A stretch of 64,000 nucleotides of DNA from the NCBI GenBank assembly GCA_019187105.1, contig JABAQM010000001.1, forward strand, positions 2,200,734 to 2,264,733, read 5' to 3'. The notes under the pieces are model-generated. The model was not told the origin of the DNA and did not search any database. It was given only the letters and a program-made list of their open reading frames with translations. This DNA is from Fimbriimonadaceae bacterium. GTDB lineage: Bacteria; Armatimonadota; Fimbriimonadia; Fimbriimonadales; Fimbriimonadaceae. The position numbers and the translations under genes are program-made. Shown in pieces: positions 21,789 through 58,151 of the stretch. Within the stretch, counting starts at the first letter, position 1; each line of letters opens with the position of its first letter.

Positions 21789-24700
21789 TCAGATTTTCTT
21801 TCTCACCCACGCTTGGGCGTGGTCGATCCTTGATCGGAATACGGCTTGCGGGATGACGCCGACTTTGATGTATTGGGCAACGACCTGAATGCGGTTCGAG
21901 TTGCTGATGTATTTGCTGACATCGGTCGACGTCATTGCCGTCCGTGTGCGGTCAGAGTTGGCGGTCGTGAAGGTGTAGGAGTCCAGCAGCAGCAACGTCC
22001 CGTTGGTCTGATTGATCAGCGACAGCCGTTGTTCGATGTTCGCAAACTGCGACTGCGCATTGAGCGAGATCTCGATGGCTTCGGCGTCGCTCGCAACGAT
22101 GGTCGATGTGAAGTCAATCGTCACCTTTATGGGCGGGATGGACTGATTGGGCACGACCGTACTCTGGAAGGTCGCGCGGGTCCCGTCGTCTGCTGATAGG
22201 TTGGCAGCGTTATGGGCCCCAACCTCCGCTCCTTGAGGACCGACCGAGTAGTCGACGTAGTTTGCCGGAAAGTCCCGCTGCCCGACGTTGATCGTCACCA
22301 TGAATTCGTCGGACCATTGTGAGCCGTCCGACACGCGGTACCCGACCTTGTCCACTCCCACGAAGTCACGGTCACCGGTGTAGATCATATTGGGCAGGGT
22401 GCCAGAGATCGAGCCGTTCGAAGGCTGGGTGACGATTTCGTAGGTCAGCGGATCGCCGTCAGGGTCGAACCCGCCTAGGCGGATCGGCGTGGCAAGCTCC
22501 TCGTAGGTGTTCACCGTATCGATGGTCGCGCCAGAAGCTATCCAAGTGGGGCCATTTAGGAGGTTGCCATCTAATCCAACAGAACCCAGATCATTGGTGA
22601 CGAGCCCCGCGGCCTCATCGAGGCACCACATGAAGTTCAAGCCGCTCTCGGTCCCGGTTAGCTGGGAACGATAGTCGCGAAGAATTTCGGTTGCCGTCTT
22701 GGCCCGGTTCCATATCCTAACCTCGTCGATTTCGCCGTCGAAGAACGCCGAGGTCGACCCGGCCAGCAAGAGGTCTACGGCCGTGCGAACATAGGTGCTG
22801 GCGGTCGCGGACGAGCCTTCGAGGACGCCATTCTTGTACACCTCCATCTTGTCGGTGAGGACACCGTCTTCGGCAACGAAAGTCAGATGATTCCAGGATC
22901 CGGTCAGCCCGGTGATCGTGTCACTGAGGAGACCGCCCATCGAAACAGTGCCGAATTCGAACCGGACTGCGCCGGAGTTACCCGGTCCGTTGATGCCGAT
23001 TCGATTCGCGGCGTTCTGGTTCTCGGTCACCATCATGTACTGGGTCTTGCCCACATCCGCCTTAACCCACATTTCGATGGTGATGGCCGAGGTTGGCGCC
23101 ACGAGCCCGAAGTCGGGGAACTGAACTTTGTCGTTTGTGCCATCAAAGCGCAGCGCACTGCCGGCCAGACTCGCGACGGGCGCGGAGTTAACCACTGTCA
23201 GCGTCGTGGTAACGCTGCTATTGAAGTAAAGGGTGTCGCCGTCGAAACTGGCCTTGACGGAATGGGCGCCAAGGGCGAGATTCTGGGGGATCAAGTAGCT
23301 CAGCGTCGCGGTACCGGTGGAGCTGGTCACCGCACTTCCAACATTGAGACCATCGACCTCGAACTGGACCGTCTTGTTACCGAGAGGGGCCTGGCTGGAC
23401 GTTCGCTTGAGGGTCGCCGACAACTGAATCGTTTGGAGCCGTTCTCCTTGGTAGTTCCCGGCGGTCATCGAGGTTGCCGCCTTCGTGACCGTGAAATCGA
23501 CGCTGTTCGACGTTCCTCCGCCTGGTGCGATGTTCCTCACCGTGACCGGAAGCGTCGCGGGAGCGGTTAGCTGGGCGGCGGGTGCGGTTGCAATCAGCTG
23601 GGTGGAACTCGTGACCGCGGTTGGCACGGCGGCGCCGTTGAGGTAGGCCTCGCTGTCGCTCCAGTTGCCGAGGCCGACTCCGACGAACTTGGTGCCGGTG
23701 ACGGTAATGGGTGTGTCGGCAGACCCCCACTCGACCGAGCTTGGGGAGAGGCCACCGATGGTCGGCGCCGCGTTGTGTACGCGGATGGTTCCGAAGTTAC
23801 GCTGGTAGGCGTAGTCCACCGATTGTCCGTCGATTTCGAACGACACGGTCAGGATCATGCCTTCCGACCCAGGGTTGGCCGTGCAGGTGAAGGTGCCCGA
23901 CTCGCTGGTTTCATCGTTCACGCTGACCGATGAGGGGCTAACTGAGCCGCCGGGCGAGATCGAAATCGTGTTGGCTCGGTCCATACCGAGCTCGTCGGGA
24001 GAGCTGTCGTATTCGTAGGCGACGTGGGCATCGTCCTGGCCCCCGGCGGGCAGATCGAGGTCGCTGGAACCGGTTGAATCAAAAGAAACGGAGCCGATCG
24101 CCTTTCCTGACGAGCGTCCCGGACCCAATGCCAGGTGGGACCGCATGATCACGCCCTCGGTCCGACTGCCGCTTACGCCCGAACCGACGACCGTCAGCAG
24201 CCCGTTCGGCGCTGCGTTGATGTCGAAAAACGCATCGATACGACCTGGGTAACCGCCCAGCTGCACCTGGTCCGCCCGGTAAACGGCGGTTAGGCTCTCG
24301 ATCCAAACGACACCGTGATAGACTCCGCCGATGCGGGCGCGCCCGCATGCATGCCCGGAAGCGTTAATGTCCCGCGCTTCGCTTAGCTCGACGCCGCCAG
24401 GCTGAACAAGAATGCTCGCCGTCGCGCCATTGCTCGACCAAATGCAGGCCCGCTGAGGGTTCGACGGACCCGACATCCACCCGACGATGTTGCCGGCATT
24501 GTTGACCGCAAACGCATCCGAAGTGTCGTAGCCGGTTGGCAGGGCGAGCAAGGTGAGAGTGTTGTCTCCGGGCGTCCAAGAGAACGCCCGCCGTCTGGTC
24601 ACGCCGCTGACGGTCCGGAATCCGTGCCCGACAACCTCTTCGCCGTCGTTCACATCTCGCGCCATGACGTCGCCGGTGGTGACGCCGCTGCCGCCAAAAC

Positions 24701-25286
24701 CAGGGATTTGGGTGATGGTGCCCCCGCCGGCACGGTAGAAGGCTTTCCTCGCCCCACCGTCACTGATCTCGCCCCATCCCACGATTGCCGGCGGCGAATC
24801 GTTGTTAACCGCTACTGCTTCGGCGTCCCAGTTGAACGTCGTGTTGGAGATTTGGTTGGCGGTGTTCAGGCCACCGGTCGTGCTCCAAAAGACGGCTCTA
24901 TCGCGACCTTGGCCATCTCTTGATCGGCCGACCAAATAGGCTGGTGACGTGTCGTTGATATCGGCAACCCGCACATCATCGCCGCCCAACTCACCGAGAC
25001 GGACCATATTGCGGTCAGCGTCGCCACCCGACCACTCGCTGTTTATATGCTTTGCGTTGTCCCAGATGTAGCCGACAAACACGGCACTGTTACCGGGGTC
25101 CTGGTAGTAGCCGACGGTCCAACCCGCATCGTTTACCGCGAATGCTTCGGTAACCTGAACATTGGTCTCGTAAGCCGTTGGCACCTGGATACGCTGCTGC
25201 GTGAAGGAGGGCGTCGCGCCACGGGTGCCGTGGGAAATCGAGTCCTGAGTCAGTCCAATTGATGTTGCTAAGATAAGGGCAAGCAC
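21789..25286 (-). CDS. Large secreted HAF-repeat protein with Ig-like and LamG domains
   Basis: About 1,165 residues. The GTG at 25286 is preferred: it gives a clean signal peptide (LALILATSIGLTQ), whereas the ATG at 25310 overlaps the -10 box of a good promoter. Residues 40-350 contain HAF repeats, short blocks alternating AFAVNDAGWTVGYY-like and IVGWMSG-like strands. IPT/TIG-like and Big_3-type immunoglobulin folds follow (about 490-690), then a LamG/concanavalin-like domain (about 700-890) and a cadherin-like segment (about 905-990). The last 150 residues are a conserved domain (YSVGPQG, NIEQRLSLI, SRIDHAQAWV) also found at the end of the neighbouring gene's product. Probably an exported adhesive or structural protein. 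Confidence 0.88.
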   Translation of the reverse strand: MLALILATSIGLTQDSISHGTRGATPSFTQQRIQVPTAYETNVQVTEAFAVNDAGWTVGYYQDPGNSAVFVGYIWDNAKHINSEWSGGDADRNMVRLGELGGDDVRVADINDTSPAYLVGRSRDGQGRDRAVFWSTTGGLNTANQISNTTFNWDAEAVAVNNDSPPAIVGWGEISDGGARKAFYRAGGGTITQIPGFGGSGVTTGDVMARDVNDGEEVVGHGFRTVSGVTRRRAFSWTPGDNTLTLLALPTGYDTSDAFAVNNAGNIVGWMSGPSNPQRACIWSSNGATASILVQPGGVELSEARDINASGHACGRARIGGVYHGVVWIESLTAVYRADQVQLGGYPGRIDAFFDINAAPNGLLTVVGSGVSGSRTEGVIMRSHLALGPGRSSGKAIGSVSFDSTGSSDLDLPAGGQDDAHVAYEYDSSPDELGMDRANTISISPGGSVSPSSVSVNDETSESGTFTCTANPGSEGMILTVSFEIDGQSVDYAYQRNFGTIRVHNAAPTIGGLSPSSVEWGSADTPITVTGTKFVGVGLGNWSDSEAYLNGAAVPTAVTSSTQLIATAPAAQLTAPATLPVTVRNIAPGGGTSNSVDFTVTKAATSMTAGNYQGERLQTIQLSATLKRTSSQAPLGNKTVQFEVDGLNVGSAVTSSTGTATLSYLIPQNLALGAHSVKASFDGDTLYFNSSVTTTLTVVNSAPVASLAGSALRFDGTNDKVQFPDFGLVAPTSAITIEMWVKADVGKTQYMMVTENQNAANRIGINGPGNSGAVRFEFGTVSMGGLLSDTITGLTGSWNHLTFVAEDGVLTDKMEVYKNGVLEGSSATASTYVRTAVDLLLAGSTSAFFDGEIDEVRIWNRAKTATEILRDYRSQLTGTESGLNFMWCLDEAAGLVTNDLGSVGLDGNLLNGPTWIASGATIDTVNTYEELATPIRLGGFDPDGDPLTYEIVTQPSNGSISGTLPNMIYTGDRDFVGVDKVGYRVSDGSQWSDEFMVTINVGQRDFPANYVDYSVGPQGAEVGAHNAANLSADDGTRATFQSTVVPNQSIPPIKVTIDFTSTIVASDAEAIEISLNAQSQFANIEQRLSLINQTNGTLLLLDSYTFTTANSDRTRTAMTSTDVSKYISNSNRIQVVAQYIKVGVIPQAVFRSRIDHAQAWVRKKI

Positions 25287-25308
25287 AGGCGGCGGGTCCT
25301 CCGCAGAC

Positions 25309-25336
25309 ATTGTACAAAACCGCTCTCCCGATTCAA
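25309..25336 (-). promoter_or_regulatory. Promoter of the 21789-25286 secreted protein
   Basis: On the minus strand TTGAAT (25336-25331), a 16-bp spacer and TACAAT (25314-25309). The -10 box overlaps the upstream ATG at 25310, which argues that translation starts at the GTG at 25286. Confidence 0.6.
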
Positions 25337-25384
25337 TGGGACTTTAGACTGTATTTGTAACGGCAATCCCGAGTTTCTTTGGAG

Positions 25385-27652
25385 TTACTTCGTTACCGTC
25401 ACGCCAACTTGGTCGATCCGGCCTTGGAACCGCTGCGATGGAAGCAGCCCGACTCGTCGATACTGGACGACGGCAGTCACCTCGCCGTTCGGGCCGACAT
25501 AATCGGCGGCGGGCGAAACGCTTCCTGAACGCGTGACATCGGTGTTGCCTGTTGTGAAAACAAAGGTATCGAGGCGTCTAAGCGTCGTCATATCCGTTCG
25601 GTCGAGCAAGGAAAGGCGTTGCTCGATATTCGGGAACTGGGTCTGAGCGTCCACCACCACCTCGACCGAATCCACGCGCTCGGTGATGGCCGAATCGAAT
25701 TGGACGTTGTAGCGGATGCCGGGAATATTGAAATTGGCGACCGCGGTGTTCTCGGCAAAGCTCCGATTTCCGTCGTTCACGCGGAGGAGCTCAGGGTCAT
25801 GGGCACTCTTCTCCTGGCCCTGCGGACCGACTGAGTAGCCGACCAAGGCAGCTTGGTCGACAAGGGGCTCGACCCGAACCAAAGCGATTCCTGACCGGCC
25901 GCCTCCGGGCCCTACATTCAGCACTTCCAACATCACGGTGCCGGGTACGGCAAGGTCCCCTGGCATCAGGTTGACGGAAATCTCGGTCGGCGAAACCCAT
26001 ACTGAAGGCCGCCAATGGCTGTTGATCAAGACCTGGGAGTCACTCCAATCGCCCGCGCCTTCGGACACATAGCCGCTTCCGTGGAGAACCACGGTTGCTC
26101 CTTCCGAGCTCTGATCAAGGACATTCGGAACCACCGAATCGATCACGGGGACTGGATTGTGGACGCGCACCCTCCCAAACGATCGCTGATAACCGTAATC
26201 GCCGGATTGCTCGTCGATGGTGAAGCTCACCGTCAAAAGCTTGCCCTCCGAGCCCGGGTTGGCGGAGACCGTGAAAAGACTTGAGGAGGATTCGTCTTTG
26301 GCGATCGCAACCTCGTTGGTCGAGAGGGTCCCGCCCTCGGAGATTGACAACTGCTGGGTGCGCTGCCGACCCTGCTCGTCAGCTTGGCCGTTATAGCTCA
26401 GGTCGATCTTGGCGTCGCCGGAGCCGCCTGCGGGAAGGTCGAGATCGCTTGATCCCGTAGTTTGAAAGGACACCGACCCAATGGCCTTGCCGGTCCTTCC
26501 GCCACCCAATGAAGCGTGCGCTCGAACCAGAACCGCCTGAGCGTTGGGGCCGAATTCACCGATTCCGCAGGTTGCGATCGAATCGCGTAGCGTATCGGTG
26601 ACACCGTAAAGCGCCGCGATGCGGCGAGGATAACCTCCAATCGGGGCTTGCGAGACGAGGATCGGTGGGCTTACGAGGTCGTTCCAGATCGCACCATACG
26701 ATTCTCCATACAAGACAACCGCGCCCACCACGGCCGTGTCTCCCGATGAAATTCCATAGGCGACCGATCCCGCTTGCCCTGGATAAGGGGGCAGGACGAC
26801 TGCCTCACTCTGCCCGTTGGGCCAGACGCAGGCACGCAGTCCCCCGCCACCACCCTCGAGGCCACCGGCGATATCCCCGGCGTCGTTGGCTGAGTAGGCC
26901 CAGGATTTTAAGAATCCGCCGGGCAGGTGCAGCGGCGTTAGATTGGGCTCGCCCTGGCGCCATGCGAAGGCCCTGGTCGCGGTCTCGCCGAGAAACGTCC
27001 GGTCGGCATACCCGACCACCAGCGGACTCGCCCCGTTATTGACATCGCGGGCGAAGGTCTCCGAGGTCGTGGCTCCTCCGCCGAACCCGGGCAGAACTGT
27101 CATGCCGCTGGTGCGCCAGTAGAAGCCGAAGTTGTTTCCGCCGGGGGCCGGCTTGCCGCGGCCGACGACAACCAAGTTGGGGCCGACGCCATCGTTGATG
27201 CCGAACCCTACCGACTCATAGCTGAGCGGTGGCAGGGTCCAGACGCTGGGATGGTCGAGATCGTCCGTCCTCCAGATGGCAGCCCGGTGTCGGCCACCGG
27301 TGTCGACCAAGGCTCCGGTGATGACACAGGGACTCATGCCGTTGTTGAGCGCGGTCGCGTAGGAGTTCAGGAACGAGCCGTTGTAGGTGTTGCGAAGCAG
27401 GACCATGCAGTGCATGGGATCGCCACCGATCCAGTCGAAGTGCTTCTTGTTGTCCCAGATGAAGCCGAAGTACTCGTTATCCGGGCTCAGCCAATAGCCC
27501 ACGACCCAGTTCCGGGCATTCACGGCGAAGGCGTACGCCATCTTGGCCTGACCGATATCAGTTCGCGTGTCAAGCTGCTGCTGCGTGTACTGAAAGGCCG
27601 ATGATCCTACCGCCAGACACCCTAAGACCCCTGCGAATACCGAACGGAACAT
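25385..27652 (-). CDS. Secreted HAF-repeat protein, paralogue of its downstream neighbour
   Basis: 755 residues with a signal peptide ending near SSAFQ. The N-terminal half is a HAF-repeat region closely parallel to the neighbouring 1,165-residue protein (YTQQQLDTRTDIGQAKMAYAFAVNARNWVVGYW, then FGFIWDNKKHFDW). A shared block around residues 400-480 (GKAIGSVSFQTTGSSDLDLPAGG) precedes a TIG-like domain, and the same 150-residue C-terminal domain closes the protein (YSVGPQGQEKSAH, NIEQRLSLLD). The long LamG-Ig insert of the neighbour is missing, so the pair looks like a tandem duplication in which one copy gained or the other lost domains. A TATACT box lies 10 nt before the ATG. Confidence 0.87.
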   Translation of the reverse strand: MFRSVFAGVLGCLAVGSSAFQYTQQQLDTRTDIGQAKMAYAFAVNARNWVVGYWLSPDNEYFGFIWDNKKHFDWIGGDPMHCMVLLRNTYNGSFLNSYATALNNGMSPCVITGALVDTGGRHRAAIWRTDDLDHPSVWTLPPLSYESVGFGINDGVGPNLVVVGRGKPAPGGNNFGFYWRTSGMTVLPGFGGGATTSETFARDVNNGASPLVVGYADRTFLGETATRAFAWRQGEPNLTPLHLPGGFLKSWAYSANDAGDIAGGLEGGGGGLRACVWPNGQSEAVVLPPYPGQAGSVAYGISSGDTAVVGAVVLYGESYGAIWNDLVSPPILVSQAPIGGYPRRIAALYGVTDTLRDSIATCGIGEFGPNAQAVLVRAHASLGGGRTGKAIGSVSFQTTGSSDLDLPAGGSGDAKIDLSYNGQADEQGRQRTQQLSISEGGTLSTNEVAIAKDESSSSLFTVSANPGSEGKLLTVSFTIDEQSGDYGYQRSFGRVRVHNPVPVIDSVVPNVLDQSSEGATVVLHGSGYVSEGAGDWSDSQVLINSHWRPSVWVSPTEISVNLMPGDLAVPGTVMLEVLNVGPGGGRSGIALVRVEPLVDQAALVGYSVGPQGQEKSAHDPELLRVNDGNRSFAENTAVANFNIPGIRYNVQFDSAITERVDSVEVVVDAQTQFPNIEQRLSLLDRTDMTTLRRLDTFVFTTGNTDVTRSGSVSPAADYVGPNGEVTAVVQYRRVGLLPSQRFQGRIDQVGVTVTK

Positions 27653-52569: not shown

Positions 52570-53667
52570 CTAAACAATCCGTCCTTCCGCAAACGCTTCC
52601 AGCCTCACCGGCTTGAACCGATAACGGGGAACCGGCGCGGACCCAAAGTTCCATTCGACCAGAGGCCGAATCACCTGTTCGGTCATGAGCGTATCGGAAA
52701 GCTCCCGGCGAATCGCCTCGATCTGCAGCAGCAAGACCTGCAGATGGACCCTTCCGAGCGCCATCGATCCGACGCGGCGGCCCTCGTCGGTGGTGAGGGT
52801 CTGCCCCAGGACCGCCCTCGCAATTTCGCGGTTATGGAATTCGATGGCTTCGGCAAATCCAGTCGAGAACGACCGATCCGCGCCAAGCATCGCGACTTCG
52901 ATCTGGTTGGGCACCAGTAAGGCGGTGTGCTCATTCAAGCGGCTTAGGGCATCGAGCGCCGAAGCTTGTTCCTCGAACGGAGTACCGCGATCGTAGCGCC
53001 CGAGCACTGTCGGCGAGGCGTAACGCTCCAGGTGCAGCCGCCAAGACTTGAGCAGCGCCTGCTTGGCCGACCAATGCGGATACGCGGCTTCCAGATCGCT
53101 GCGGCCGCGGGGGAACCCAAACGAGCGCCGGTGCACGTGCACGACGAACTTCTGTCGGGGAAGGTCAACCGCCGGTTCGCCCGGAACCTCAAGCACGAGG
53201 CCGCTGACGTTTCCATATCGGTCGACGCGCAGGCCGAAGAGCGACGGGTCTTTTGGCTTGCAGGCAACCAATCGGACCTCGCCGCCCGCCCGGTCTAAGA
53301 CCATCTCCTGGACCGACCACCCGCGGCCAAACGCCGACATCCCCTGTCGCAGGATGTCGTCCGCCGACCCAGCCATGGTCGCGAACTGGTTCTCGATCCA
53401 CCTCGCGACCCGGTTTCCGAAGGGACTGTCTTCGCCGGGGACGATCTCACCCGGAGTCGCGAGCACGGCAAGCGACTTGATGGTCAAGGCGGTCTGAACC
53501 ATTGCGTCGCCTTCCATCGCTTGCAGGGTTGCCGGCGGCAATCCGGTGGGCAGGGGCGGTCGCTCAAAGGACCGCAGATCGAATCGCGAGAGCTGTGGCG
53601 CCGATTCGCCGCTCGGAGGCTGCTTCCGCAGCAGTTTTCGAAAGAAGTTTAAGGATCTCATGGTCAT
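52570..53667 (-). CDS. Phage portal protein (DUF935, Mu gp29-like)
   Basis: 365 residues beginning at the ATG at 53667 (MTMRSLNFFRKLL); the frame's upstream part is low-complexity Arg/Pro readthrough of the terminase gene. The DUF935 portal family is recognised by VQEMVLDRAGGEVRLVACKPKDPSLFGL, the LHLERYASPTVLGRYDRGTPFEE segment, ALSRLNEHTALLVPNQIEVAML and AVLGQTLTTDEGRRVGS. Portals form the dodecameric ring through which DNA is pumped. It overlaps the terminase gene by ATGA. No capsid, protease or tail gene follows: the next gene on the strand is the deiminase, 75 bp away and with its own promoter. Confidence 0.88.
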   Translation of the reverse strand: MTMRSLNFFRKLLRKQPPSGESAPQLSRFDLRSFERPPLPTGLPPATLQAMEGDAMVQTALTIKSLAVLATPGEIVPGEDSPFGNRVARWIENQFATMAGSADDILRQGMSAFGRGWSVQEMVLDRAGGEVRLVACKPKDPSLFGLRVDRYGNVSGLVLEVPGEPAVDLPRQKFVVHVHRRSFGFPRGRSDLEAAYPHWSAKQALLKSWRLHLERYASPTVLGRYDRGTPFEEQASALDALSRLNEHTALLVPNQIEVAMLGADRSFSTGFAEAIEFHNREIARAVLGQTLTTDEGRRVGSMALGRVHLQVLLLQIEAIRRELSDTLMTEQVIRPLVEWNFGSAPVPRYRFKPVRLEAFAEGRIV

Positions 53668-54914
53668 TTGCGAAGGTCGCCGAGGAGGATACGTCCGGTG
53701 ATTGCCGACCCGAGTCCGCTCACGGCCAGGGCGAGGGCGATCACGAGGTCGTCGTGGTAGCCGTTGCGGGCGTTGTAACGGGTGTTCCCGGCATCGGTGG
53801 TGGTTTGTTCGAAGTGCTGAAGCTCCTTGATCAGCTCGATGTGGGGCGTCATGGCGAGGTGCCGCCGTTCGAACGCCCACGACAGGTTCTGAATAAGCTC
53901 TTGTTTGACGGCGTTGGTGAACTGGAGTCCGCGCGCTGCCCGCAGCTCGGGTCGCTGTTCCATCAGCTCGAACACGGGATTCCCGACGCCGGTTGCGTCG
54001 ACGATAACCGAGGCGTCAGGGTATGGCTCGACGAGATCGGCAATCCGACTGACGGTGGTATCCCAGCACACGCGGTGCCAGCGATCGACACGGTGGACGG
54101 CGAACCCCTCACGCTTGCCCACGACCACGACAACCGCGGTGAAGTCGAAATCCCTCCCCAAATCGATCCCAACCGCGGCTCGACCTTCGATCGGCGGCAG
54201 GGTCTCGAAGAGGCAGGCGTCGATGTCTTCCGTCTTGAACACGCGTCCCGCCGAGTCTTCGAACGACGCCTCGTACTCGACCCGATAGGCGCGTGGCGAG
54301 ATGAGTTCCTGCTGAATGCCCAGAAACCGGCGCGAGACAAGTGGCGACTCTTCGCTGGGCCCCGTGCGGCTCCAGATACCGTGCTCGCCTCGCTGGCCAA
54401 GATCGAAGAACCGGTGAAAGTGGTTCAGGCCGTTCGGGGTACTGATCAAGGTCATCGTGCCGTCGTTCGTTGCCAGCATCGGCATGGCGACTTCGGTGAT
54501 GACCGATTCGGGCAGGAACGCGGCTTCGTCGATGACGATCGAGCTGGCTTCACGGCCTCGGAGGGTGTACTCCAGGTGCCCTGAGCGCGCGGTCAGCTCG
54601 TTGCCGCCGATCTCCAATCGCGGATAGGGCGACGACCGGACATTCTCCACCCGCTTGGGGCCGAGTACGGTTCTGGCAAGGGCGACGACGCGATCGAAGA
54701 GGATGTTGGCTTGGTCTTGCGTGGGTGCGATGACGACGCATCGATGGCCGTTGCTTCGCGTCAGGCGGTAGAGCGTTTCCACCGCGCAGACGTCGGTCTT
54801 GCCCCACCTTCGGCCGCAGGCGAGTACCTTGATTGGGCTCGGATGAACCAGAAACTCCCGCTGTCCGGGATGGGGCCGCCAGTGCTCCGCGATCGATTGC
54901 AGGAACGCATCCAC
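53664..54914 (-). CDS. Phage terminase large subunit (ATPase/nuclease)
   Basis: 416 residues. Walker A is CGRRWGKT (33-40), the usual terminase variant, Walker B is SIVIDEA (125-131), and LISTPNG near 157-163 is motif III. The RNase H-like nuclease domain has D251 in GIDLGRDFDFTAV, D306 in VDATGVGNPV and H387-D388-D389 in YHDDLVIAL. All catalytic parts are intact and the frame is uninterrupted, so the gene is probably still functional or only recently isolated. The start is GTG at 54914. It heads a two-gene operon with the portal; no small terminase, integrase or structural gene lies nearby. Confidence 0.92.
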   Translation of the reverse strand: MDAFLQSIAEHWRPHPGQREFLVHPSPIKVLACGRRWGKTDVCAVETLYRLTRSNGHRCVVIAPTQDQANILFDRVVALARTVLGPKRVENVRSSPYPRLEIGGNELTARSGHLEYTLRGREASSIVIDEAAFLPESVITEVAMPMLATNDGTMTLISTPNGLNHFHRFFDLGQRGEHGIWSRTGPSEESPLVSRRFLGIQQELISPRAYRVEYEASFEDSAGRVFKTEDIDACLFETLPPIEGRAAVGIDLGRDFDFTAVVVVVGKREGFAVHRVDRWHRVCWDTTVSRIADLVEPYPDASVIVDATGVGNPVFELMEQRPELRAARGLQFTNAVKQELIQNLSWAFERRHLAMTPHIELIKELQHFEQTTTDAGNTRYNARNGYHDDLVIALALAVSGLGSAITGRILLGDLRK

Positions 54915-54949: not shown

Positions 54950-55016
54950 CCACCTATGGAATTTTGGAAACCACCCTCACGATCCGCAAGCGGGAAGGTG
55001 CGCCCCAAAAAGCTAA

Positions 55017-55044
55017 AGAGCGCCCCGGCGAACCGGGGCGCTCT
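55017..55044 (-). terminator. Strong hairpin ending the candidate small gene
   Basis: A perfect 12-bp stem, AGAGCGCCCCGG (55017-55028) and CCGGGGCGCTCT (55033-55044), with a 4-nt loop. On the minus strand it is followed by TTTAGCTTTTT, so it acts as an intrinsic terminator for transcripts coming from the right. It lies 17 bp after the stop of the 65-codon ORF and before the terminase promoter. Confidence 0.7.
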
Positions 55045-55061
55045 CTCCTCATTAGTCTCGG

Positions 55062-55259
55062 TCAGGGCCGGTTCGTCCGGCCATGAGATTGACTTGAGGC
55101 GCGCGTTCCACTTAGCCTGCTGGTCTCCCTCTGGAATGGTGTCGTTCCAAGGTCCGCAATCTCCGCCAACAGGTCCAACATGGCTTCGACCCTGACCGTT
55201 GACTTTGGAATGTTGACTTGCCCATCCTCCGAAGGGTGCTGTAGCTCCTTAGTGGGCAT
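55062..55259 (-). CDS. Candidate small protein of 65 residues, divergent from the AfsR-like gene
   Basis: A 65-codon ORF starting at ATG 55259. The product begins MPTKELQHPSEDGQ and continues with NIPKSTVRVEAMLDLLAEIADL, which reads like a short strand plus a helix, before a Ser/Thr/Arg-rich tail. I recognise no family. What supports it as a gene is its setting: a TATTAC -10-like box (55274-55269) 9 nt before the ATG, two direct heptamers just upstream of that box, and the strong minus-strand terminator 17 bp after the stop. It could instead be part of a non-coding RNA or chance. Confidence 0.4.
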   Translation of the reverse strand: MPTKELQHPSEDGQVNIPKSTVRVEAMLDLLAEIADLGTTPFQRETSRLSGTRASSQSHGRTNRP

Positions 55260-55281
55260 GTGTGGATGGTAATAATTCTGG

Positions 55282-55299
55282 TCTTAAACGACTCTTAAA
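55282..55299 (-). promoter_or_regulatory. Two direct heptamers with 11-bp period, SARP-type operator candidate
   Basis: TCTTAAA at 55282-55288 and again at 55293-55299, separated by CGAC: two identical heptamers 11 bp apart on the plus strand (TTTAAGA on the minus). The nearer one lies 7 bp upstream of TATTAC on the minus strand and the other covers the -35 position. SARP activators bind direct heptamers with this period next to the -10 of target promoters. Confidence 0.5.
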
Positions 55300-55311
55300 T
55301 GGGGTGAACGT

Positions 55312-55346
55312 GCGCGATTCTTACAGCGCGATATAATGGATCGCGC
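55312..55346 (+). promoter_or_regulatory. Three GCGCGAT heptamers and TATAAT at the AfsR-like gene promoter
   Basis: GCGCGAT occurs at 55312-55318 and 55326-55332, and its inverse ATCGCGC at 55340-55346, an exact 14-bp period. The last pair forms a perfect 7-bp inverted repeat around the -10 box TATAAT (55332-55337), and the last copy abuts the ATG at 55347. This looks like an operator for negative or autogenous control of the gene. The gene's start is 9 nt after the -10 box, so its mRNA has almost no leader. Confidence 0.55.
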
Positions 55347-58151
55347 ATGCCAGATGCTGTATGCCGAGTCGAGCTGTTCGGCAATCTCAGACTGTTCCTT
55401 AGCGGCCGCCCGATGCCAATCAAGTCTCAGCGATTGGGCTCGCTGCTCGGGTTGATGGCGCTTGAGTTGCCGGCGCGCTTACCAAGGTCCCACGTGATCG
55501 AGATTCTTTGGCCAGAAAGCCTGCCGGAATCGGGCCGCAACAGCTTGAGCGTGGCAGTGCATGGGTTGCGGCAGTTGCTCGAACCGACAAAAGAGGACCA
55601 GGGAACGATTCTAGTCGCTGAATCCACCGATATAGGTTTAAACCCACTAGCCGTTTCGACGGATGTACAGGATTTCCAGCAGGCTATTGCAGAAGGGCGC
55701 CTTGGCGAGGCTATTGCCCTCTATCGACCGAACCTTGCCCAAGGCCACCATCTTGACGCCTTGCACGATGCACAGGCGAAGTATCACCTGGTAGCCATCA
55801 AGGCCTATGAAGAGCTGGTCAAGAGCTTGCGTGAGGCAAAAAAGGTTCGCGAAGCCATCGTGGTGAACACGCAGCTCATCGCCCTCGACCCCTTCAATGA
55901 GCGCGCACACATTCGGGCGATAAAACTCAATCTGGAGTCCGGTAACCGTAATAGCGCTCTCGAAGCCTACGAGGTTTTTCGGCGAATGCTAAAGACAAAT
56001 TGTGGCGCCGAGCCAGACCCAACCGTCGACGCATTGGTTAGAGATATCGCGCCTGCTTTTGGAAACGTCTTTGTTGCCCCTGAAGTCGACACTTCTGATG
56101 ACATACAGGCCACTCAAATTCCTGTTCGTCTAACAAAATTCTTTGGTAGGGCCAGAGAATTGGAATTGCTCGACAATCTCATTAATGGCGGGGCAAAGTT
56201 GATAACGATTACTGGAATGGGGGGTATCGGCAAGACGAGGCTTGTCGAAGAGGCTCTAAAACTTCAGGCTGCCAAGAACAACCCTCCTGCCCTTTACTTC
56301 GTTTCTCTTGCCGGCCGCAAGTCTGCATCCGAGGCCCTTAGCGAGATAGTGCAGGGCGTCCTGCCCTCCGGTTATCAAGCTCCCAACCTGACCGCCCAGA
56401 TCGCAGCGGTGTTATCGAATCGGCGATCGATCCTCGTGCTCGACAACATCGAGGACCTCTTGAATCACGACGGCTTAGAAGGGGCGACGATGGTCGAAAG
56501 CCTCGCCGGCTCGGTGGAGTGCTTGACCGTGCTCTGCACTTCTCGAGTTGCCATTGCAATCGACGGAGAGGTGGATTTCCGCCTGGATCCTTTGCCCGAT
56601 CTAGGCAAGGGCCATGCCTTCGATGCCGTCAAGGCAAACCCTCGGGTTCAGCTTTATGTCGATCGAGCAAAGAACGTTAACCCGGAGTTCGAACTGTCGG
56701 AGAAGAACTACAAGTCGGTTGCCGAGATTTCAACCTGGCTTGAGGGCGTTCCGCTGGCAATCGAGCTAGCGGCGGCCTGTGCTCGCTCCATCCCCCCCAA
56801 ACTGCTTCTAACTCGACTCAAGGCGCGACTCGATCTGCCCGACTCCCGGCTGAGAAAGGGCGTTGCCCGACATCGCAGCATCCGCGCCGTACTCGATAGC
56901 AGCTTCGAGCTCCTTAATGCAAGCGAAAGACTAGTCATCTGCACGTGCGCAACATTTAGAGGCGGGATTTTCCAAGACTCATTGGATCGGATCCTCGGCT
57001 CAGATACCGGGCAGTGTCTTGCGCAGTTGACCCGTTGCAGTCTGCTACGGGCCGAGTCCACATCACACGGCATGCAGTGGAAGATGCTCGAAATGGTCCG
57101 TGAGTTTGCGGAAGCCCGGCTAGCCGAGGAAGAGGAACCCTCAAAGATCGAAACCGCTTTCGCGATGACATTCTTGACCCAGGCCGAAGCGCTTCGGCAG
57201 CTGCTCACGGGGCACCAGCAACGCGACACGCTCTCCCGCATGCATTTGGACCGAAATAACTACTTGCGTGCCCTCGACCTCATGCTGGACAGAACCGACA
57301 TGTTGGAAGACGCTGTCCGTATGGTTGCGGCGCTATGGCGATTCTGGAGTATTGCCGGAACTCTCAACATCGGGCGCACTCGGCTTGATAGGCTGCTCAC
57401 GCAGTGCGAATCGAGGCCGATCGATAGCGGCTTAATGGCTCAGGCGTCCAACTTCGCCGGTAACCTTGCCTATTCGGCTGGGGAGTATAGCAAGGCGAGG
57501 CGATACCACGAACGCGCGGTTCTTCACTACCGGCAAGAGTTCAATGCTGAAGGTTTGGCATCCGCACTCAACAATATCGCCTTAGCTGGGATGCGGCTGG
57601 GTCAGTATGCAGCCGCAAAGCACAGTGCCGCGGAGGCGGTTGCCACCGCTGATGAGCACGGGTTGCATGACCTCCATGCGACGGCTCTGGGAACCTTGGG
57701 CCTGACCAACTACTGCAACGGCGACTTTTGTGCCGCGGCAACCGAGCTCGAGGCTGCTGCGGTCAAATTTCGCGCACTGGGCAACATCTACGCGACGGCG
57801 AACAACCTACGCCACCTCGCACGGGCACGATTTAACCTTGCCGATCAACGCTTTGCCGGGCTTGTTTTCGAAGCACTCGAACTGGCGGAAGGTGTCAACT
57901 CCTTGGCCCTGGCACTCAGCATCGTGATGGTCATCGCAGAGATGTGCGCCAACCTGGGGAACAAGAAGCTCGCCAGTACGCTCTTTGCCACGGTCAAGGC
58001 CATTCGGGCAGCGGATTCCGTAAGTTTTGTTGCGGGCGATGCAGCCCTGGAAATCGAAGTCGGAAGGTTGGTTGAGCCCGCAGATCCAGTTGACTTCCGA
58101 TCTGCAGTCGACCTGGCTCGCGAATTTCTGATCGGCGCCTCCCGGTCCTAA
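55347..58151 (+). CDS. AfsR-like regulator: SARP/BTAD DNA-binding, NB-ARC ATPase and TPR domains
   Basis: 934 residues. Residues 1-100 are an OmpR-type winged helix (RVELFGNLRLFLSGRP, ARLPRSHVIEILWP, RNSLSVAVHGLRQLL), and about 105-240 the bacterial transcriptional activation domain with DPFNERAHIRAIKLNLESGN. An NB-ARC-like ATPase follows: Walker A GMGGIGKT at 290-297, Walker B SILVLDN at 361-367, and GVPLAIELAAACAR near 475. TPR repeats fill about 700-900 (ASALNNIALAGMRLGQYAAAKHS, ATALGTLGLTNYCNGDF). This is the build of Streptomyces AfsR, and such proteins activate promoters by binding heptamer repeats. The STAND ATPase suggests switching on a ligand or phosphorylation. Confidence 0.93.
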   Translation: MPDAVCRVELFGNLRLFLSGRPMPIKSQRLGSLLGLMALELPARLPRSHVIEILWPESLPESGRNSLSVAVHGLRQLLEPTKEDQGTILVAESTDIGLNPLAVSTDVQDFQQAIAEGRLGEAIALYRPNLAQGHHLDALHDAQAKYHLVAIKAYEELVKSLREAKKVREAIVVNTQLIALDPFNERAHIRAIKLNLESGNRNSALEAYEVFRRMLKTNCGAEPDPTVDALVRDIAPAFGNVFVAPEVDTSDDIQATQIPVRLTKFFGRARELELLDNLINGGAKLITITGMGGIGKTRLVEEALKLQAAKNNPPALYFVSLAGRKSASEALSEIVQGVLPSGYQAPNLTAQIAAVLSNRRSILVLDNIEDLLNHDGLEGATMVESLAGSVECLTVLCTSRVAIAIDGEVDFRLDPLPDLGKGHAFDAVKANPRVQLYVDRAKNVNPEFELSEKNYKSVAEISTWLEGVPLAIELAAACARSIPPKLLLTRLKARLDLPDSRLRKGVARHRSIRAVLDSSFELLNASERLVICTCATFRGGIFQDSLDRILGSDTGQCLAQLTRCSLLRAESTSHGMQWKMLEMVREFAEARLAEEEEPSKIETAFAMTFLTQAEALRQLLTGHQQRDTLSRMHLDRNNYLRALDLMLDRTDMLEDAVRMVAALWRFWSIAGTLNIGRTRLDRLLTQCESRPIDSGLMAQASNFAGNLAYSAGEYSKARRYHERAVLHYRQEFNAEGLASALNNIALAGMRLGQYAAAKHSAAEAVATADEHGLHDLHATALGTLGLTNYCNGDFCAAATELEAAAVKFRALGNIYATANNLRHLARARFNLADQRFAGLVFEALELAEGVNSLALALSIVMVIAEMCANLGNKKLASTLFATVKAIRAADSVSFVAGDAALEIEVGRLVEPADPVDFRSAVDLAREFLIGASRS

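Follow-up and report, generated by a model that had tools for sequence, protein, structure and literature searches.

Promoters controlled by SARP-type activators carry repeats at a distance of 11 or 22 bp; 8 bp separate the 3' one from the -10 box, and the -35 element is poor (PMC10936776). AfsR, the best match to the regulator described here among those of known structure, acts as a side-by-side dimer touching RNA polymerase (PMC10936776; PMC5930380). In the AfsR-afsS system of Streptomyces coelicolor, a protein composed of SARP, NOD/NB-ARC and TPR parts is combined with two 11-bp repeats near a -10 box, a poor -35 and a short ORF behind the operator (PMC10936776). The locus described here is alike in all these points, but its heptamer is TTTAAGA, the target is divergent, and the real target appears to be an operon for secreted proteins, while the short ORF arose here as a chimera by deletion and matches no known family. 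PimR and other SARP-LAL regulators (PMC5930380) also use operators of heptamers with 4-nt spacers; PimR differs by its guanylate-cyclase/LAL C-terminal half and by its role in the control of a polyene cluster in Streptomyces. The literature searched yielded no publication describing SARP operators outside Actinomycetota, by which their absence is not proven.

The locus and its regulator

The window, that is the whole stretch of 64 kb that was analysed, contains the following elements.

55347..58151, plus strand: SARP-NB-ARC-TPR (AfsR-like) regulator of 934 aa (Pfam domains, profile match to AfsR and EmbR)
55332..55337, plus strand: TATAAT box, probable promoter of the regulator without a good -35 (direct reading)
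55278..55299, minus strand: predicted 22-bp operator, two 11-bp direct repeats TTTAAGAGTCG TTTAAGACCAG (reading, alignment with the copies in UBA6659 and at G000:C1:219848, composite pattern)
55266..55271, minus strand: probable -10 box TACCAT of a predicted leaderless transcript (alignment with two other sites)
55062..55259, minus strand: 65-codon ORF, a chimera in which the 5' part of a short ORF runs into the 3' end of a secreted-protein gene, read out of frame (tblastn, blastn)
55158..55259, minus strand: the ~34 codons kept from the start of the short ORF (protein and DNA comparison)
55084..55152, minus strand: remnant of the secreted-gene 3' end, PWNDTIPEGDQQAKWNARLKSIS, not in the frame of the ORF (tblastn, blastn)
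55015..55046, minus strand: intrinsic terminator, probably of the lost secreted-protein gene (folding; comparison with UBA6659)

The flanking divergent gene had been called AfsR-like in a sequence-only reading, and the Pfam and profile matches bear this out for a SARP-STAND regulator. Its BTAD domain (PF03704) is found at 8e-14 with 52.6 bits against a cut-off of 22.1, followed downstream of the SARP domain by an NB-ARC domain (2.8e-8). TPR_12 is weak in the window regulator (0.001) and reaches 2e-7 in the UBA6659 orthologue introduced below; Trans_reg_C on its own is weak (0.015 and 0.0017, below the Pfam cut-off). A profile made from the SARP region of the window regulator and 14 homologues matches AfsR chain 8hvr at 1e-20 over the entire SARP domain and EmbR at 8e-18, and these two are the closest relatives among solved structures. 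It aligns to the AfsR SARP chains from position 4, placing an OmpR-type winged helix at the N-terminus, and the wHTH part also fits the wHTH of ToxR over 25-76. EmbR of Mycobacterium tuberculosis shares the SARP (wHTH + BTAD) domain, but has an FHA domain and lacks NB-ARC and TPR. An assignment as AfsR orthologue was rejected, the score with the NCBIfam AfsR equivalog model being 48.9 bits against a cut-off of 1430. The TATAAT box lies 9 nt upstream of the regulator ATG.

Among 101 relatives a single close orthologue of the regulator was found, in the MAG Chthonomonas sp. UBA6659 (contig DKKT01000042.1), with 64% identity over 925 residues (63% in the full alignment); the next-best homologues have about 30%. 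No further orthologue appeared in 85 family genomes, 291 Armatimonadota genomes and a GTDB 220 contig scan. The predicted recognition helices of the two orthologues are nearly identical (RNSLSVAVHGLRQ / RNSLSVALHGLRQ), in agreement with the heptamer that both loci share. The backbone contacts W74, P79 and R94 of AfsR align with W55, P60 and R75 of the window regulator, whereas the base contacts T88 and R92 are replaced by V69 and G73. Therefore, the DNA specificity must differ from that of AfsR, which fits the different heptamer.

Two other gene pairs in the window deserve mention on their own. At 52573-54914 (minus strand) a terminase large subunit lies next to a Mu-type portal protein, without other recognised phage genes. 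Portal homologues occur in 49 of the 85 family genomes (22 of 32 genera), mostly as one good copy each and with 45-58% identity, and the pair is kept in the further loci examined, two of which lie among apparently ordinary chromosomal genes; it is a conserved module, possibly domesticated or gene-transfer-agent-like. At 21789-27652 (minus strand) neighbouring proteins of 1173 and 755 aa share a segment near GKAIGSVSF.TTGSSDLDLPAGG and are apparently paralogous surface or secreted proteins.

The predicted operator and the intact operons

Direct reading confirms the pair of TCTTAAA heptamers at 55282-55288 and 55293-55299 that the sequence-only reading had described; the period is exactly 11 bp, and on the minus strand the pair reads TTTAAGAGTCG-TTTAAGACCAG. 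The TATTAC box named there is also in place: it lies at 55274-55269, 7 bp beyond the nearer copy, and the ATG at 55259 follows 9 nt on. As a -10 box it was nevertheless set aside, since it does not align to the other two sites described below. TACCAT (55271-55266), 6 bp past the 22-bp repeat box and 6 nt ahead of the ATG, aligns with TATCCT and TACCCT of these sites and fits better. With -10 boxes 6 nt before the ATG, the transcript is predicted to start at or beside the start codon. Across the window, TANNNT boxes show a roughly fourfold enrichment 6-10 nt ahead of predicted starts (7 in 5 positions) over positions further upstream (12 in 39), which lends modest support to leaderless genes in this organism. 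A sigma-70 scan gave no promoter at the window site, which is what its poor -35 would lead one to expect.

The 64-kb window holds five cases of an exact 7-mer repeated with period 11, about one per 13 kb, so that a match within a given promoter of ~100 bp is an event of about 1%. The main weight of the evidence, and strong evidence by sequence comparison, is the conservation of the operator in the same place at two other loci. A search for the heptamers together with a divergent short ORF in related genomes had been set beforehand as a test, and both are kept in UBA6659: its intergenic region holds a divergent short ORF of 61 codons and GGTCTTAAGCAGGTCTTAAAC, with the identical heptamer at 11-bp period. 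From the heptamer to the regulator start there are 47 bp in the window and 42 bp in UBA6659. The second locus lies in the own genome. The exact pattern TTAAGANNNNNTTAAGA is present twice there (in the window and at C1:219,848) and once in UBA6659, each time 20-25 bp upstream of the ATG of a short ORF; at C1:219,848 the distance is 21 bp and the ORF, of 53 codons, is related to the other two.

With the predicted boxes, all three sites show the arrangement described for SARP promoters, in which direct repeats are spaced at 11 or 22 bp and about 8 bp lie between the 3' one and the -10 box; here the period is 11 bp, and TTAAGACC and the -10 box are separated by 8, 8 and 7 bp. A composite of TTAAGACC-N6-9-TANCNT-N5-7-ATG matches exactly these three sites across the two genomes, against 0 in the reversed control. 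The base pattern alone gives 45 matches in 85 genomes against about 27 in the control, i.e. about 0.3-0.5 by chance per family genome. As it is not rare by itself, the case rests on the combination of elements. That the 11-bp repeats behave like the operator of the AfsR-like regulator is supported by their conservation in the orthologue and by their recurrence in the own genome at a second, unlinked target, equally far from the start codon.

At both intact loci the short ORF overlaps by ATGA a gene for a secreted-type protein, of 582 aa at C1, where two more such genes follow, and of 550 aa in UBA6659, where a terminator stands immediately 3' of the secreted-gene stop. The 582-aa copy has a hydrophobic, signal-like segment at its N-terminus, and the C-terminal region of the product matches the phage tail-related families PHROG 17490, 28536 and 6616. 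It differs from phage tail proteins by the signal-like segment, by its location in chromosomal operons and by the lack of adjoining phage genes. The three tandem proteins of the own genome (C1:220,044-225,442; L059:1045-6443) share an N-terminal TPG..Q.GH.N(I/V)SG motif besides the phage-tail-like C-terminal region, and relatives of them are found in 14 of the 85 family genomes, with up to 31 matches per genome.

The short ORFs form a small family. A single-sequence search in 101 relatives yielded noise apart from the own-genome copy at 219,886 (E 0.04), a match which is convincing only once that of the operator is added; a profile of the three members found no others in 85 genomes, and no Pfam or NCBIfam family is matched. 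Whether the short ORF is functional itself in the intact operons, either as a leader cistron for translational coupling or as a partner of the secreted protein, we judge to be nearly an even question, leaning slightly towards the negative. At both intact loci an AAGGA Shine-Dalgarno sequence ahead of the secreted gene lies within the short ORF, next to the ATGA overlap, the family has a conserved (A/V)(D/E)A..xLL.E(I/M) helix segment, and differences between the two intact copies are biased to the third codon position (11/12/21). However, this bias is drawn from just 44 differences, and three members are all that is known.

The 65-codon ORF and the fate of the adjacent operon

The minus-strand ORF at 55062-55259 has indeed 65 codons, as the sequence-only reading had it, and is followed by a terminator hairpin (55046-55015, 12-14 bp with a T tract, about 16 nt 3' of the stop) whose folding beats all 200 shuffles (z = -3.7). 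Its first part matches its relatives of 53 aa (own genome) and 61 aa (UBA6659) with 39% identity over 41 residues (E 3e-5). At the DNA level, a first block from the operator to codon ~34 matches the intact own-genome operon (64% of 141 bp, E 1e-8), and a second one, 55152-55087, matches the 3' end of the secreted gene in the same copy (blastn, 68%, E 8e-5); against UBA6659 this 3' remnant gives 66% of 95 bp (blastn, E 6e-7). In a tblastn search of the whole window, PWNDTIPEGDQQAKWNARLKSIS matched the ends of the secreted proteins with 61-65% over 23 residues (E 1e-7 and 2e-8). Both blocks are colinear with the intact operon, their junction is at 55152-55159, about 1.7 kb is absent from the window relative to the own-genome copy, and the hairpin occupies the place of the secreted-gene terminator, as in UBA6659. 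On these alignments, the 65-codon ORF is the scar of an internally deleted secreted-protein operon, and the residual ORF presumably has no function.

We consider it probable, with good though not full confidence, that we have here, outside Actinomycetota, an AfsR-like activator whose targets are operons encoding secreted proteins like tail fibres, the adjacent target having decayed and a live one lying elsewhere. In the ancestral layout, still to be seen in UBA6659, two SARP protomers would occupy the two 11-bp repeats just 5' of the -10 box and turn on a leaderless transcript beginning at a short ORF of 53-61 codons, itself overlapping by ATGA the gene of a 550-582 aa secreted protein with phage-tail-like C-terminal region. 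In the window the operon body, about 1.7 kb judging from the paralogous copy, has been deleted. What is left consists of the operator with its -10 box, ~34 codons of the short ORF, the final ~30 codons from the secreted gene, now out of frame, and the terminator. The regulator, itself intact, would probably act now on the operator at C1:219,848, ahead of the short ORF and the three tandem secreted-protein genes. What the sequences show is the architecture of the regulator, the conservation of operator and short ORF, the deletion and the second site; we infer binding, leaderless start and the action of the window regulator on this second site, and we take activation rather than repression from the family and the box position. 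Several facts limit or oppose this explanation: the operator copies total three, in two genomes only, a further orthologue is absent from the genomes searched, the base pattern by itself also arises by chance, the base-contacting residues of AfsR are replaced, and the own genome carries other BTAD regulators, one of which could serve the 0.22-Mb site.

The retained operator might also be kept for autoregulation of the regulator only, or for titrating the regulator off the 0.22-Mb operon. Operator and -10 box are preserved despite the loss of the operon, the regulator gene is intact, and the distance to its start is alike in the two species. Nevertheless we regard this as rather unlikely, as the preserved -10 box still points to the minus strand and the UBA6659 site has an intact minus-strand target, so that preservation may only reflect a recent deletion.

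The sequence-only reading had proposed an AfsR-AfsS-like circuit of two parts, with the 65-residue protein serving as a small effector dedicated to relaying the signal of the regulator, as AfsS does in Streptomyces. Of this proposal the AfsR-like regulator stands, together with an operator that is kept in the orthologue and at a second, unlinked site; the effector does not, and we think it very improbable. Size of the ORF, period of the operator and position do resemble afsS, and the N-terminal ~34 codons come from a short-ORF family conserved in position. However, the C-terminal half of the ORF derives from the end of a different gene, read in a shifted frame, the intact relatives stand as first cistrons in operons for secreted proteins, family matches in Pfam or NCBIfam are missing, and the differences between the window short ORF and its paralogue over the three codon positions (13/12/18) speak for little coding constraint. 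Since the length of the ORF results from the deletion, its agreement with the 63-residue AfsS is accidental. That the repeats are due to chance and the divergent ORF is unrelated noise is scarcely credible: period-11 7-mers and the base pattern do arise by chance at the rates given above, but repeats, spacing, -10 box and ORF start are common to three loci in two genera and the composite occurs at no other site of the two genomes.

Related regulators and significance

Upstream regions of 77 related regulators were surveyed for exact 7-mers at fixed period. Period 11 was seen in 10 of them against 2.4 expected from resampled sequences, and is the sole clear peak, no other period between 8 and 34 exceeding 5. 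The count excludes L095, where a run of N accounts for the match (1 of 11), and becomes 8 without the two cases that prompted the test. Beyond the present pair, such repeats are found in L020 and L103 (TGTGACG), L025 (CGTCTCGAAA) and L026 (CTCTGACAA), whereas the matches in L009 and L130 look like chance. Repeat-bearing regions are a minority of those surveyed. These counts suggest that private 11-bp operators are common for AfsR-like regulators in Armatimonadota.

A general link of 11-bp repeats to the secreted-protein family was rejected, the repeats being present in 4 of 43 upstream regions where 1.2 were expected, and other periods being equally high. A suggestive single case is contig G014:C5 (L144), where a secreted-protein gene lies just downstream of a regulator homologue (L007, 9765-12758, minus strand), in the same orientation, and has a TGTCATAGATC-TGTCATAGACG 11-bp repeat just 5' of it. 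The tandem order resembles that of afsR and afsS, a secreted protein taking the place of the target. One may tentatively picture, with more doubt than confidence, that AfsR-like activators of the SARP-STAND type form an enlarged set in Armatimonadota. They would have private operators of 11-bp repeats and leaderless promoters and be directed to surface or secreted fibre-like targets instead of antibiotic clusters, some of the operons beginning with a short coupling ORF.

When a short ORF follows a good promoter, its length, as this locus teaches, should not be taken to indicate a small-protein gene. From the comparison of two genera, a defined, predicted SARP operator and its regulon would be available outside Actinomycetota, with a target that is not an antibiotic cluster. 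The window may further represent a natural loss of function, in which one target operon is reduced to a scar while regulator, operator and second target remain. With the scar on one side and the surviving second target on the other, how the operator affects the regulator itself would become separable from how it affects the operon.
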